From an uncultured Bdellovibrionales bacterium (GTDB taxonomy: Bacteria; Bdellovibrionota; Bdellovibrionia; Bdellovibrionales; Bdellovibrionaceae): a DNA stretch of 64,000 nucleotides. The stretch covers positions 186,001-250,000 of the forward strand of contig CAIYID010000031.1 of the NCBI GenBank assembly GCA_903926205.1, in the 5' to 3' direction. Below are positions 4,410 to 46,462 of the stretch, piece by piece. The notes beneath the pieces are model-generated. The model saw only the letters and a program-made list of their open reading frames with translations, searched no databases and had not been told where the DNA came from. Positions within the stretch are counted from its first letter, which is position 1, and every line of letters starts with the position of its first letter. Both the position numbers and the translations under genes were made by a program.

Positions 4410-5396
4410 ATGTCAAAAAAAGATTTTTATTCTACATTAGGAGTCTCTCGCTCTGCAGATGCAGATGAGATCAAAAAGTCTTATCGCAAATTGGCGATGA
4501 AGTTTCATCCAGACAAAAATCCTGGCGATAAAAAATCTGAGGATAAATTTAAAGAGATCACTGAAGCTTACGAAGTTCTTGGCGATACAAAAAAGAGGGA
4601 ACTTTACGATCAATTCGGATTCGCTGGAGCCAATCAAGGTTTTGGCGGCGGCGCCGGTGGCCCTGGACCAGGAGCTGGTTTTGGTGGTAGTTATTCCGGT
4701 GGCCAAGAGGGCTTTAATGATCTTTTCGGGGATATCTTTGGAGATATTTTTGGAGCTGGTGGCGGTCGCCCTGGTACTGGTGGCCCTCGTGCTCAACGAA
4801 GACAACGGGGCGCTGATCTTCGTTACACACTCAATATCGCAATGGAAGAGGCGGCCTTGGGTGCTGAGCGCACAATTGCCTTTGTTCGAAGCCGTAATAA
4901 TCGTGAAGAAAACGCTAAACTCTCAGTAAAAATTCCTGCTGGCGTTGCTCAAGGTCAGCGCTTAAAACTTGCCAATGAAGGTGATGGAAGCCAGATGGGC
5001 GGTCCCAGTGGCGATTTGTACGTAATTATAAATATTCAAGAGCACTCCCTTTTTAAACGCGAAGAGGATGACGTTCTTCTTGATCTTCCCATTGCGTATA
5101 CAGAGGCAATACTCGGAATAATGGCAGAGGTTCCAACTCTGACTAATAAAATTTCATTAAAAATTCCACCAGGAACTCATTCTGGTCAGGTCTTTCGAAT
5201 CAAAGGTAAAGGCTTCCCAAAAATGGGCGGCTTTGGCACTGGCGATATGTTAGTGCGAGTTATCGTCGACATTCCTATGAATGTTTCTGGTCGACAAAAA
5301 GAATTAGTAGAAGAGTTATCCAAAGCCCCAAGCGAAACTCCTTTAGTTAAAGCCTTCAAAGAGAAGGTCCAGCAAGCAATGAAGAACAAGAGGTAA
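4410..5396 (+). CDS. DnaJ-type co-chaperone lacking the zinc-finger domain (type II/CbpA-like)
   Basis: About 328 residues. The ATG at 4410 is preferred over the in-frame ATG at 4386 because a GTGAGG ribosome site lies 6 bases before it and the J-domain begins at once ([11 protein letters not shown]). The J-domain carries the essential HPD ([10 protein letters not shown]). A Gly/Phe-rich linker (about residues 70-130) and two C-terminal substrate-binding beta domains follow. The four CxxCxGxG repeats of classical DnaJ are absent; the protein goes straight from the linker to the C-terminal domain. It is therefore a class B J-protein coupled to grpE. It may be the main DnaJ, or a second copy may exist elsewhere. 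Confidence 0.9.
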
Positions 5397-5404
5397 TACT
5401 AAAG

Positions 5405-7276
5405 ATGGGTTTGATTAATGATTCATATTCTTTGGTCTTTAGCTCCTGCTGTTTATCCCTTGTTCTTTCCGCCTGTTCGACTTTAAGTGAAGCCCCAGTC
5501 GTCCATAAACCTCAACACAAAGTTCCTTCTAAAGTTGAAACAAAGTCCGAGGTAGTAACTCGGTCTTCAAAAGCAACGAAAGCGAGTGCTGCCGGAAAAA
5601 ACTCTCGTCCCGTTTCCGGTGAAATCACTTCTCCTTCAGAGGCAGGCATGCTTTCTTTTCGACAGGATTTGCTCATAAGAAATTATCCCGCCGCCTTGGC
5701 AGATTCAGATATTATGCTTCAAAGCCCTGGCCTTAGCGCGATGAATTTTTTGGAACTCTTTCAAGGTCGCGTGATTTCTCACGAGGCTCTGGGTGACCTG
5801 CCGGGCTCAATTTTAGATGCTCAAACAGTTATTTTAAATCCTATTTTAATTAAAGAATCTGAGGCGGTTAAAAATCACGCCATTGAGACAATTGAAGGAC
5901 GAATGAATCAAGAACAACTTGAGAAAATGGAAGGCTTGCTCAGTGCTAATTCTCTAAAAACTCAAGTGCTGTTTCGCTTAGGTCAATTCAGCCTAGACAC
6001 TAAAGACCATGAAAAAGCGCAAAAATATTTTGCAAGATTAATTAATATTGAGCCCAACTCTGATCTTGGGCACCGGGCGCAGGAGTTATTAACTCAATTA
6101 GAGGCCGCCCGTCGGGTAGAGCCAAAAACAATTGGAGTGGTTTTGCCTCTGACAGGTAAACATGCTTCTATTGCTCAAAAAACTCTGCGCGGCGTGCAGA
6201 TGGGTCTTGGACTTTATGGAAGAAATATTTCCACCTTCAAGTTGGCTGTTGTTGATAGCGAAGGAAATCCAGACACTGCTCGAAAAGGTGTTGAGCGCTT
6301 AGTAAAAGAAGATAATGTGATTTCAATTATCGGTAGTGTTTTAAGTAAGACGGCCTCTGGGGTTGCCTCTAAAAGCGCAGAACTCGGGGTTCCCAGCATT
6401 ACTTTGTCACAAAAATCTGGCTTGACGGAGTTGGGCCCAAATGTTTTTAGAAATGCCCTCACCAGTGAAATGCAGGTTCGTTATTTAGCTAAGGTTGCAG
6501 TCGATGATCTTGGGCTTAAAAGGTTTGCCGTTCTTTATCCCAACGATCAATACGGCGTGGAATACACAAATATTTTTTGGGACGAAGTTTTAGCTCGTGG
6601 TGGATCAATTACCTCGGCACAAGTTTATTCCCCCAAAGAGACTGATTTTCGTTTAGTGATTCAACGTTTAATTGGAACTTTTTATTTAGAAGATCGCGCA
6701 GAAGAATACAAAGCACGGCTGAAAGACTGGTCTGAACAGCAAAGCAAGCGCTCTGGCCGCAATACCCCTCCTGAGGATTTATTGCCCCCAGTGGTCGATT
6801 TTGACGCTATTTTTATTCCTGACAGCGCAAAATCACTTGGCCAGGTGGCTGCGATGCTCGCCTATAGCAACGTTCACGGTGTTAAATTATTAGGAACAAA
6901 TTTGTGGAATGTTCCAGGCCTTGCTAAACGCGCAGGAAATTCGGCGAAAGATATCGTTTTTGTGGATAGCTTTTCCTCTTCTGATCCAGCTTTTCAAAAC
7001 TCAAGCTTTGTCCGCGAATACAAATCGTTATTTGGTGAGGAGCCCGGCGTTTTTGAAATTCAGGGATATGATTCTGCGTTGATACTTCGCCAGCTCATTG
7101 CCGCCGGAAATACCTCGCGCGAAAGCTTGTCACAAGCTCTGAATAAATTACAAAATTTTTCCACAGCACTGGGGAAAGTTTCTGTGACTCCAGAGCGCGA
7201 AATTCTTCGTCCGCTCGGCGCTTTAACCTTAGAAAATAATGAAATTGTTCCTCTTAGAACTCGCGGAACTCCCTAA
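5405..7276 (+). CDS. Lipoprotein with TPR-like region and periplasmic ligand-binding fold (LppC/LpoA- or amino-acid-binding-like)
   Basis: The protein has 623 residues. A lipoprotein signal ends in the lipobox LSAC (Cys about 24). Residues about 75-230 are helical and TPR-like (FRLGQFSLDTKDHEKAQKYF). From about residue 238 (IGVVLPLTGKHASIAQ) there is a type 1 periplasmic-binding fold of the Leu/Ile/Val-binding class, with segments such as VVDSEGNPDTARKGVERL and FAVLYPNDQYGVEY. TPR plus this fold resembles LpoA/LppC activators of penicillin-binding protein 1A, but also branched-chain amino-acid receptors. No transporter genes lie beside it, which mildly favours an envelope-assembly role. It follows dnaJ by 8 bp, so it is probably co-transcribed. 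Exact function unknown. Confidence 0.8.
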   Translation: MGLINDSYSLVFSSCCLSLVLSACSTLSEAPVVHKPQHKVPSKVETKSEVVTRSSKATKASAAGKNSRPVSGEITSPSEAGMLSFRQDLLIRNYPAALADSDIMLQSPGLSAMNFLELFQGRVISHEALGDLPGSILDAQTVILNPILIKESEAVKNHAIETIEGRMNQEQLEKMEGLLSANSLKTQVLFRLGQFSLDTKDHEKAQKYFARLINIEPNSDLGHRAQELLTQLEAARRVEPKTIGVVLPLTGKHASIAQKTLRGVQMGLGLYGRNISTFKLAVVDSEGNPDTARKGVERLVKEDNVISIIGSVLSKTASGVASKSAELGVPSITLSQKSGLTELGPNVFRNALTSEMQVRYLAKVAVDDLGLKRFAVLYPNDQYGVEYTNIFWDEVLARGGSITSAQVYSPKETDFRLVIQRLIGTFYLEDRAEEYKARLKDWSEQQSKRSGRNTPPEDLLPPVVDFDAIFIPDSAKSLGQVAAMLAYSNVHGVKLLGTNLWNVPGLAKRAGNSAKDIVFVDSFSSSDPAFQNSSFVREYKSLFGEEPGVFEIQGYDSALILRQLIAAGNTSRESLSQALNKLQNFSTALGKVSVTPEREILRPLGALTLENNEIVPLRTRGTP

Positions 7277-43639: not shown

Positions 43640-45124
43640 ATGCAATCAAGTGATACCAGAGCGGCCGGGGGACCTGTGGAAATAAATGAATCTTTTTGGA
43701 ATCAGATCAAAAACCAAATTAAAGCTCGAAATACTGAAAACAAATCCCTAGAAACGTGGTTGAATCCAGTCTCTTTCGTAGAGGTTTCTGGTTCTTCAGA
43801 TCTTCCACGTTTGATTTTAGGCGTTCCTAATGACCTTTCGCAATATTTTGTTGTGGAAAACTTATTAGAAAAAATTTACTGTGAAATCTCTGCTGCTTTC
43901 CGTCAACCTTTTGAAGTTGATGTTATTGTTAAACGCCAGGCAGTAGCTGAAATTCCGGTTATTTCTGCTCCTACTTATACAGAAAACCAATTTGAACTTT
44001 CGAGAAGTTCTCAGCCTATTAATGCAAACTCACAGACACCGTTCTCTCAAAATTCCATGAGTAATCAAACTCGCCCACAGGAAATTTTTAATAGAGACTC
44101 TTTAAATCAAGAGTACTCTTTTAATACCTTCGTTGTCGGCCGTAATACTGAATTCGCTCATGCTGCTTCTTTTAATGTTGCAAGAAATCCTGGTATGGAT
44201 GGTTATAATCCTCTTTTTATCTGCGGACCTGTTGGAATGGGTAAAACGCATTTATTACATGCCGTAGGGAACCATATAAAAGGTAATATTCCTCATTTAC
44301 GAATCCAATATATTAGTGCCGAACGATTTTTAAATGAGTTTTTATCTGCACTTCGTCGAGAAGAAACGGAAAAATTCAGAAATAAATATAGAGATGGATC
44401 AGACGTTCTTCTTGTTGATGATGTTCAAATGATCGGCAAAGGACAAGCAACACAGGACGAGTTTTTTCACGTTATTAATTCGTTTTTGGAACGAAAAAAA
44501 CAAGTGGTTCTCGCGAGCGATCGAATGCCAAAAGATATTATCAATCTTGAGGATCGAAATAGGTCTCGACTCGAGTGGGGTCTTATCGCCGATATTTCGA
44601 TGCCTGACTTTGAAACCCGCGTCGCTATATTGCGTTATAAGGCTGAAAGATTTTCTGTTCGTCTTAATGAAGAGGTTATCCATTACATAGCCAGGATATC
44701 CAAACGTTCAATTCGTGAAATAGAAGGAAATATTAAGAAAATCAAGATGTTCTCTGAATTATCAGGTGTTCAAATTGATATTAATTTGGCTAAGCAAGTG
44801 CTTGCTCATCATGAAACACAAACGACAATATCCATAGAGGATATCCAAAAATTAGTAGGTGATCATTTTAAAGTACGAATCTCTGATTTAAAATCAACAA
44901 CTCGCGCTAAGCAGATTGTTGTTCCAAGACAAATCTCTATGTATTTGATTAAACGTCATCTTGATAAGTCTCTTGTTGATATTGGCCGCGCTTTTGGCGG
45001 TAAGGATCATACAACAGTAATGAATGCTTTAGAGCGAGTTGAACATCTACAGAACATAGATATGGATATTAAGAATGATGTCGAGGAGTTAACAACTAGA
45101 ATCCACAATATCACTGGCTTGTGA
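43640..45124 (+). CDS. dnaA: Chromosomal replication initiator DnaA
   Basis: 494 residues. Domain I (about 15-90), a long Ser/Gln/Asn-rich linker (domain II, to about 155), AAA+ domain III with Walker A GPVGMGKT (about 196-203), the DDVQMIGKG Walker B/sensor stretch and SRLEWG (box VII-type arginine finger), and domain IV with the DnaA signature (RQISMYLIKRHLDKSLVDIGRAFGGKDHTTVMNAL). Walker A and DDVQMIGKG differ slightly from the usual GGVGLGKT and DDIQFLAGK. It binds DnaA boxes and unwinds oriC, which lies directly downstream. Confidence 0.97.
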   Translation: MQSSDTRAAGGPVEINESFWNQIKNQIKARNTENKSLETWLNPVSFVEVSGSSDLPRLILGVPNDLSQYFVVENLLEKIYCEISAAFRQPFEVDVIVKRQAVAEIPVISAPTYTENQFELSRSSQPINANSQTPFSQNSMSNQTRPQEIFNRDSLNQEYSFNTFVVGRNTEFAHAASFNVARNPGMDGYNPLFICGPVGMGKTHLLHAVGNHIKGNIPHLRIQYISAERFLNEFLSALRREETEKFRNKYRDGSDVLLVDDVQMIGKGQATQDEFFHVINSFLERKKQVVLASDRMPKDIINLEDRNRSRLEWGLIADISMPDFETRVAILRYKAERFSVRLNEEVIHYIARISKRSIREIEGNIKKIKMFSELSGVQIDINLAKQVLAHHETQTTISIEDIQKLVGDHFKVRISDLKSTTRAKQIVVPRQISMYLIKRHLDKSLVDIGRAFGGKDHTTVMNALERVEHLQNIDMDIKNDVEELTTRIHNITGL

Positions 45125-45144
45125 ATGTGGACTTGGGAAAAGCC

Positions 45145-45153
45145 TGTGGATAA
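45145..45153 (-). promoter_or_regulatory. DnaA box, perfect consensus
   Basis: TGTGGATAA on the plus strand is TTATCCACA on the minus strand, the exact high-affinity DnaA box. It is 21 bp after the dnaA stop. A weaker candidate, ATCTCCACA, follows at 45181-45189 on the plus strand. Confidence 0.85.
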
Positions 45154-45225
45154 ATCTGAGTACTTAACTGTGCGTCAGAGATCTCCACAGAAAATGGATG
45201 GTATGCAGTCATTTTTTATAACGCG

Positions 45226-45234
45226 TTTTCCACA
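45226..45234 (+). promoter_or_regulatory. DnaA box, near-consensus
   Basis: TTTTCCACA differs from TTATCCACA at one base. It is in the opposite orientation to the perfect box and 43 bp before the box that abuts the trio tract. Confidence 0.6.
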
Positions 45235-45276
45235 TTCTTTTTTTAATATTTACAAGAGCTTAAGTGGTTTGCTAGC

Positions 45277-45303
45277 TTTTCCACGCTACTACTACTACTA
45301 CTG
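45277..45303 (+). promoter_or_regulatory. Basal unwinding element: DnaA box followed by a DnaA-trio tract
   Basis: TTTTCCACG (45277-45285), a near-consensus box, is joined without spacer to five CTA triplets and one CTG (45286-45303). On the complementary strand these read 3'-GAT repeats, the DnaA-trio motif that guides DnaA onto single-stranded DNA (known from Bacillus subtilis). The AT-rich unwinding stretch follows at once. Confidence 0.8.
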
Positions 45304-45358
45304 TATTTATATATATAAAAAGAAGTAAATATAGAGGTCCATATTTTTGGGGTTTTTA

Positions 45359-46462
45359 ATGAAAATAGAAATTGAGAAAAAAGATCTCATAAATTTGATC
45401 GGTAAAACACAAAACATCGTAGAAAAAAGAAATACGATGCCGATCTTAGTAAATATATTACTTGAAGCCGATAATAACGAGCTTAAAGTTTTTGCAACAG
45501 ATCTTGAAGTGAGTTTAACAGACGCTTGTTCAGTTAAAATAATTGTTCCTGGAAAAGTTGCAGTTAGCGCAAAAAATCTTTATGAAATTACAAAAGAATT
45601 ATCTGAAGGAATTATCCAGCTACATAAAAAAGAAAATAATTGGCTAGAAATTAAACAAGGAAAATATTTATCAAAAATTGTTGGAATCAGTGCAGATGAA
45701 TATCCAATATTTCCAAGTTATTCTGGCGATGGCTTTATTCAAATTGAATCACAAGTTTTGAAGGATATGATAGATAAAACAATCTACAGTGTTTCGAATG
45801 ATGAAACCCGTTATCACTTAAACGGTGTCTATTTCGAACAACAAACAGAAGGTTATATCATGGTGGCAACAGATGGTCACCGGATGAGTTTAATTAAGCG
45901 TGCAATAAGCTCAGATAAGCCATTTATAAATCACGGAGTTATTATTCCAAGAAAAGGACTCTTTGAAGTAAAAAAACTTTTAGAAACACTAGGTGGAAAT
46001 TTTGAAATTGCCATTGATGGTGCTCAGTTAATAGTTCGTCATGAAAAAACGACTTTAATGATTCGTTTGATAGAGGGAAAATATCCAAATTATTCACAAT
46101 TTATTCCACAAAAACTATCACAAAAAATAAAAATTAATCGTGAAGCATTTTTACAATCATTGAAACGAGTTTCATTACTAGCAAATCATAAATCAAAAGC
46201 AGTTACTTTAGCTTTTTCTCAAGGAAAAATGGAAATAACATCGAATAATCCAGAATTCGGTGATGCAAAAGAAGAATTAGAAATTAATTATACTGGAAAA
46301 GAAATGAAGATCGGATTTAACGCAAAATACATTCAAGACGTTTTGCAAGTGATACAAGACGAGGATATAGACCTTGAGTTAAATGATCAACTATCACCAG
46401 GACTCATGCGACCGCACAATGATAAAAATTATACTTGTGTTGTAATGCCAATGCGAATTTGA
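45359..46462 (+). CDS. dnaN: DNA polymerase III beta subunit (sliding clamp)
   Basis: 367 residues from the ATG at 45359. Three repeated clamp domains; recognisable are NTMPILVNILLEA, LYEITKELSEG, GVYFE and TDGHRMS, and the C-terminal end YTCVVMPMRI (VxPMRL-like). Ring-shaped processivity factor. First gene after oriC on the right. The upstream AGAGGTCC and the G-run before the ATG are only modest ribosome-site matches. Confidence 0.97.
   Translation: MKIEIEKKDLINLIGKTQNIVEKRNTMPILVNILLEADNNELKVFATDLEVSLTDACSVKIIVPGKVAVSAKNLYEITKELSEGIIQLHKKENNWLEIKQGKYLSKIVGISADEYPIFPSYSGDGFIQIESQVLKDMIDKTIYSVSNDETRYHLNGVYFEQQTEGYIMVATDGHRMSLIKRAISSDKPFINHGVIIPRKGLFEVKKLLETLGGNFEIAIDGAQLIVRHEKTTLMIRLIEGKYPNYSQFIPQKLSQKIKINREAFLQSLKRVSLLANHKSKAVTLAFSQGKMEITSNNPEFGDAKEELEINYTGKEMKIGFNAKYIQDVLQVIQDEDIDLELNDQLSPGLMRPHNDKNYTCVVMPMRI

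Follow-up and report, generated by a model that had tools for sequence, protein, structure and literature searches.

The left half of the Escherichia coli oriC contains the DUE, box R1, an IHF site and the next box. In Bacillus subtilis, tests of the register of the DnaA-trios and of their deletion have already been published (PMC6669920), and in the structure the two pairs just ahead of trio 1 (G19:C24 and G20:C23) are unpaired, the contacts described there being backbone contacts (PMC10721633). Trios have also been described at the oriC of Bdellovibrio bacteriovorus, where DnaA opens the DNA beside the trios, close to DnaA box 1; four trios were reported, with a short GC-rich region between trios and box (PMC5124646).

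The sequence analyzed here, called the window, is a stretch of 64,000 nucleotides from an uncultured Bdellovibrionales bacterium. It carries in order dnaA, dnaN, recF, gyrB and gyrA, with rnpA/yidC-type genes upstream on the opposite strand; dnaA was recognized by the profile TIGR00362 and the other gene names were taken from ORF translations. The tract under study lies inside the 234-bp gap between dnaA and dnaN, with the following features:

43640-45124, plus strand: dnaA, 494 aa (TIGR00362, 457 bits against a cut-off of 343.9)
45145-45153, minus strand: inverted DnaA box TGTGGATAA, perfect consensus
45181-45189, plus strand: DnaA box ATCTCCACA, 2 mismatches
45226-45234, plus strand: DnaA box TTTTCCACA, 1 mismatch, upstream partner 51 bp ahead of the trio-proximal box
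45250-45262, plus strand: putative IHF-like site TTACAAGAGCTTA, 2 mismatches to WATCAANNNNTTR, weak in the window and proposed from relatives
45277-45285, plus strand: trio-proximal DnaA box TTTTCCACG, 2 mismatches, the commonest form within the family
45286-45288, plus strand: CTA occupying the conserved 3-nt spacer slot, by slot homology with relatives
45289-45303, minus strand: five DnaA-trio slots, CTA four times then CTG on the plus strand, i.e. 3'-GAT four times then GAC-5' on the trio strand
45304-45333, no strand: A/T-rich unwinding stretch, the weakest duplex of the window, from sequence and stability
45359-46462, plus strand: dnaN, right-hand flank

Read directly, 45277-45326 is TTTTCCACG-CTACTACTACTACTACTG-TATTTATATATATAAAAAGAAGT, i.e. 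a box, five CTA and one CTG, and an A/T stretch, letter for letter as in the preliminary description. By letter, (CTA)5CTG abuts the box, which carries a G at position 9. The middle base of all six triplets is T, hence A on the trio strand. That all trios are 3'-GAT, as had been proposed, is correct for the five CTA; the last triplet, CTG, is 3'-GAC-5'. It might be read as CTA plus G minus one base, by comparison with relatives that have CTAGTATTT. No second DnaA box in tandem is obvious, the adjacent upstream 9-mer TTTGCTAGC having 5 mismatches.

The tract is more than a chance occurrence: allowing up to 2 mismatches, chance predicts 0.02 matches to CTACTACTACTACTA over the window, and the only match lies here. 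The weakest 27-bp and 100-bp duplexes of the whole 64 kb begin at 45306 and 45296 respectively. The minimum of the cumulative GC skew, calculated at the level of the whole 299-kb contig, falls at window position 44169, which is some 1.1 kb away. A dnaN promoter of the form TTTACA...TGnTAnnnT was also considered and was ruled out, a consensus scan having found none.

These data bear out the earlier proposal of a DnaA-trio tract at oriC: it lies in the dnaA-dnaN gap, has conserved slots and adjoins a weak duplex near the skew minimum. We regard it as very probable that the tract forms the DnaA-trio portion of a basal unwinding system (BUS), with five trios functional by homology. A published definition of the BUS asks for at least three consecutive 3'-NAN-5' trios and for a DnaA box with at most 2 mismatches, correctly oriented and 0-16 bp from the trios (PMC8287927). 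The window has six such trios in a row at 45286-45303 and a box with 2 mismatches, 0 bp away by letter and 3 bp away by homology, and both the trinucleotide register and the number of slots are conserved. A second tandem box, absent here, is usual (57%) and not required, and the published set admits single boxes.

To compare relatives, dnaA was searched in 60 genomes, with a match in 59, and at a stricter threshold in 369 genomes of the phylum, with a match in 307. The tract was tabulated in 128 extracted origins, 114 of them from genomes of the order of the window; the statistics omit the far families f15, f16, f18 and f19, which deviate in their gaps and in the position of the tract. In the nearest genome with dnaA, the DnaA is about 70% identical to that of the window, and the sole genome of the same genus (54% complete) gave no dnaA match.

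Over the 114 genomes of the order the layout is constant: a box-like 9-mer, a GC-rich spacer of 3 nt, five triplet slots and an A/T tract, the tract starting 160-174 nt past the dnaA stop. Slot 1 is CTA in 110 of 111 genomes. The information content is high up to slot 5 and collapses from slot 6, and both the A/T tract and the box are less conserved than the trio slots. The slot anchor was picked with a score favoring C, T and A at the three positions, which biases the table towards a tract; this score did not include the emptiness of the sixth slot or the conservation of the spacer base described below. CTA fills all five slots in 57 of the 114 genomes (40 of 62 within the family), which is the commonest state. 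Thus a regular tract is normal, and the "unusually regular" character first attributed to it does not hold. Neither a CTA at slot 6 nor a run of more than five CTA was found in the 114 genomes, and changes in relatives are substitutions that keep the register rather than indels. At the depth of the order, the tract is therefore not a freely drifting microsatellite. The copy-number check by comparison of the gaps, which had been put forward as a test, thus came out in favor of the tract, five slots being kept in this comparison between genomes of the order.

In two of the far families, f15 and f19 (loci L138-L142 and L146), the spacer that follows a TCCACA box has 4 nt, against 3 nt in the order of the window. 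Their tracts are TCCACAGGTA(CTA)n or TCCACAGGCA(CTA)n, and their dnaA-dnaN gaps are longer, about 550 bp where measured.

The window departs from this layout in its spacer. In the comparison the spacer slot is CCC in 62 cases, CTC in 9, CTG in 1 and CTA in 3; it contains three G/C bases in 83 genomes and two in 24. The nearest relatives of the window have CTC, CCC, CTC, CTC and CTG, i.e. one or two substitutions from CTA. Of 111 genomes, 103 have C as the base preceding slot 1, a position that changes only seven times on the tree and is A in the window. The distance from box to slot 1 is the same as in relatives. The three genomes with a CTA spacer (the window, and G245 and G246 of another family) represent two changes on the DnaA tree; the CTA spacer is a small, recurrent change. 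In loci L114 and L109 (family f4, genus g40) the spacer slot became CTA independently of the window, which provides additional natural tracts that lack a spacer. As the window is known from one assembly only, a sequencing error in the spacer is possible.

The absence of a GC spacer noted in the preliminary description is therefore true by letter and not by homology, since the first CTA sits in the conserved spacer slot. Likewise, the six trios set directly against the box would most simply be five ancestral trios and a mutated spacer, in an unchanged register. Five functional trios with a converted spacer appear the likeliest reading of these alignments. With A:T pairs replacing GC pairs before trio 1, the first opening step should cost less, and the converted spacer might still serve as a spacer while making the initial base pairs easier to open.

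Alternatively all six trios could be functional, the loss of the spacer letting the filament start at the box with one extra protomer and open the DNA earlier. The spacer slot does read 3'-GAT-5' on the trio strand, the conserved C ahead of slot 1 is lost, B. subtilis uses six trios (PMC10721633) and spacers down to 0 bp are permitted in the published BUS search (PMC8287927). But the box-to-slot-1 distance has not changed, the geometry of the box-bound protomer is expected to set the first trio captured, and the change amounts to a substitution of one or a few bases that adds no trio. We consider six functional trios possible but rather unlikely.

The central base of the trios was then compared among relatives. 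Parsimony on a 116-row DnaA tree gives, on the plus strand, 25 T>G, 9 T>A and 1 T>C changes, i.e. on the trio strand 25 changes of A to C, 9 to T and 1 to G. The control, fourfold-degenerate dnaA sites on the same tree, gives 259:320:334 (Fisher p = 3e-7 for the excess of plus-strand G and 5e-6 for the deficit of plus-strand C). These values are to be read knowing that neighboring slots may be non-independent, that many branches are weakly supported and that the control sites are near saturation; lineages counted by eye (about 14:8:1) give p = 0.001 and 0.0004. When the central adenine is replaced, cytosine thus appears strongly preferred. In B. subtilis the central adenine can be replaced by cytosine and not by G or T, cytosine being tolerated because Asn187 needs an amine (PMC10721633). 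The natural spectrum is as predicted from this biochemistry and fits the A-or-C rule of that work (PMC10721633). We found no published precedent for this comparative point, although one may still exist.

Twenty relatives, L007, L011, L147 and L155 among them, carry C-centered trios (CGA on the plus strand) in the dnaA-dnaN gap. Such trios have evolved repeatedly, at a level well beyond the neutral spectrum, and guanine is nearly absent.

Asn187 is kept in 120 of 127 DnaAs, including that of the window. At the B. subtilis 8btg residues named in PMC10721633 (N187, I190, I193, R202, E228 and R264) the window DnaA has N, L, L, R, E and R; the residues that capture the trio bases and the arginine finger are present. 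A test for a link between DnaA residue 189 and C-centered trios led to its rejection. Eight genomes (among them L004, L007, L011, L012, L015, L157 and L158) have Met at residue 193 in B. subtilis numbering, a position flanking the third trio base, and C-centered trios occur in seven of the eight; this residue was chosen post hoc and the independent pairs are too few for a test. At 4418-5713 (G000:C93, minus strand), L060 encodes a second protein resembling DnaA, 431 aa long and with 31% identity to DnaA. It scores 312 bits with TIGR00362, under the cut-off of 343.9, and has His at the Ile190 position; G031 has a paralogue resembling it.

Upstream of the tract, 95 of the 114 genomes have a DnaA box (at most 2 mismatches) 63 or 64 nt ahead of slot 1, which places it 51-52 bp from the trio-proximal box. 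Between these boxes, 23 genomes have a match to WATCAANNNNTTR (at most 1 mismatch) at -39 or -40; just three have one at any other offset. The exact motif occurs in eight relatives from three families, always at -39; these eight copies, among 107 unique inter-box sequences, compare with about 0.1% expected from shuffles. The copy of the window, with its 2 mismatches, is also at -39. Relatives with the site at -39 include L019, L116 and L153. The genome encodes IHF-alpha, which passes the TIGR00987 cut-off and lies beside a PheT-like frame, as well as a beta-like protein that scores below cut-off. From these positions we infer a box pair that would be bent by IHF beside the trios. The literature search found no IHF-like site described in a review and a paper on Bdellovibrio origins.

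Such a site, together with the encoded IHF subunits and the weakest duplex directly past the tract, would suit an origin of the E. coli type, in which the A/T stretch opens alone while DnaA sits on duplex boxes and IHF bends the DNA, and in which the trios are incidental. This seems very unlikely: neither the A/T tract nor the box equals the slots in conservation, and central changes of A to C raise duplex stability, which selection for melting alone would not favor. A functionless, slippage-prone microsatellite would account for the perfect triplet repetition of the window. We hold it to be extremely improbable given the limit of five CTA and the empty sixth slot in the order, the substitutions in place of indels, the strongly non-neutral central-base spectrum, and the presence of (CTA)4 at a single other place in the 3.34-Mb genome. 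Least credible of all is a short protein-coding gene, for although a 67-codon open frame (45125-45328) spans the tract, the distance from dnaA stop to tract does not keep to one frame, relatives being spread over all three (47, 36 and 31), which excludes it.

In the reading that we retain, a BUS with five functional trios, DnaA domain IV would bind the duplex box at 45277-45285 and the AAA+ domains would extend along the bottom strand, one protomer per trinucleotide, each 3'-GAT-5' setting its G and A into a pocket between neighboring protomers. The bottom strand would be stripped from its partner and the A/T tract 45304-45333 would open for helicase loading. The functional trios would be the five slots of 45289-45303, and 45286-45288 the ancestral GC-rich spacer, turned into CTA by one or a few substitutions with the register intact. 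DnaA binding, filament growth and strand opening are proposed here by analogy with B. subtilis and B. bacteriovorus. A broader scheme, in which Bdellovibrionales origins combine an IHF-bent box pair of fixed spacing with a five-slot trio track whose A-or-C central base is read by DnaA, and in which the window is a natural variant whose GC clamp between the duplex and single-strand sites has become a sixth trio, so that the filament could nucleate one step earlier, is offered only tentatively and is probably not correct as a whole.

The tract itself is an element of a known kind, and the comparative by-products (the A-to-C bias and the IHF-like site) may matter more; the group around it offers natural experiments on open questions. 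The three genomes with a trio-like spacer are a natural test of whether the role of the spacer lies in its distance or in its G-C content. The recurrent change of A to C at the trio center gives evolutionary support to the base-capture rule of B. subtilis. The position-locked IHF-like site suggests a union of E. coli-type bending with B. subtilis-type trios.

Compared with the known systems, the locus shares with the oriC of B. bacteriovorus the gene order, the gap size (232 bp there, 234 here) and GAT trios by box 1 beside the unwinding element, but the spacer that is GC-rich there is CTA in the window. With the BUS of B. subtilis (DnaA-boxes 6/7 and trios) it has in common the dnaA-dnaN position, the trio-binding residues, the trinucleotide register and a box beside 3'-GAT-5' trios with an A/T tract beyond. 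It differs by one obvious weak box in place of a tandem pair, by five conserved slots in place of six, by a 3-nt spacer turned into CTA, by the putative IHF-like site upstream, and in that no DnaD requirement is known here. The putative IHF-like site, known here from sequence only, separates the unwinding-proximal box from a second one, an arrangement that recalls E. coli oriC; unlike E. coli, the window has strong, conserved trios in its dnaA-dnaN gap.
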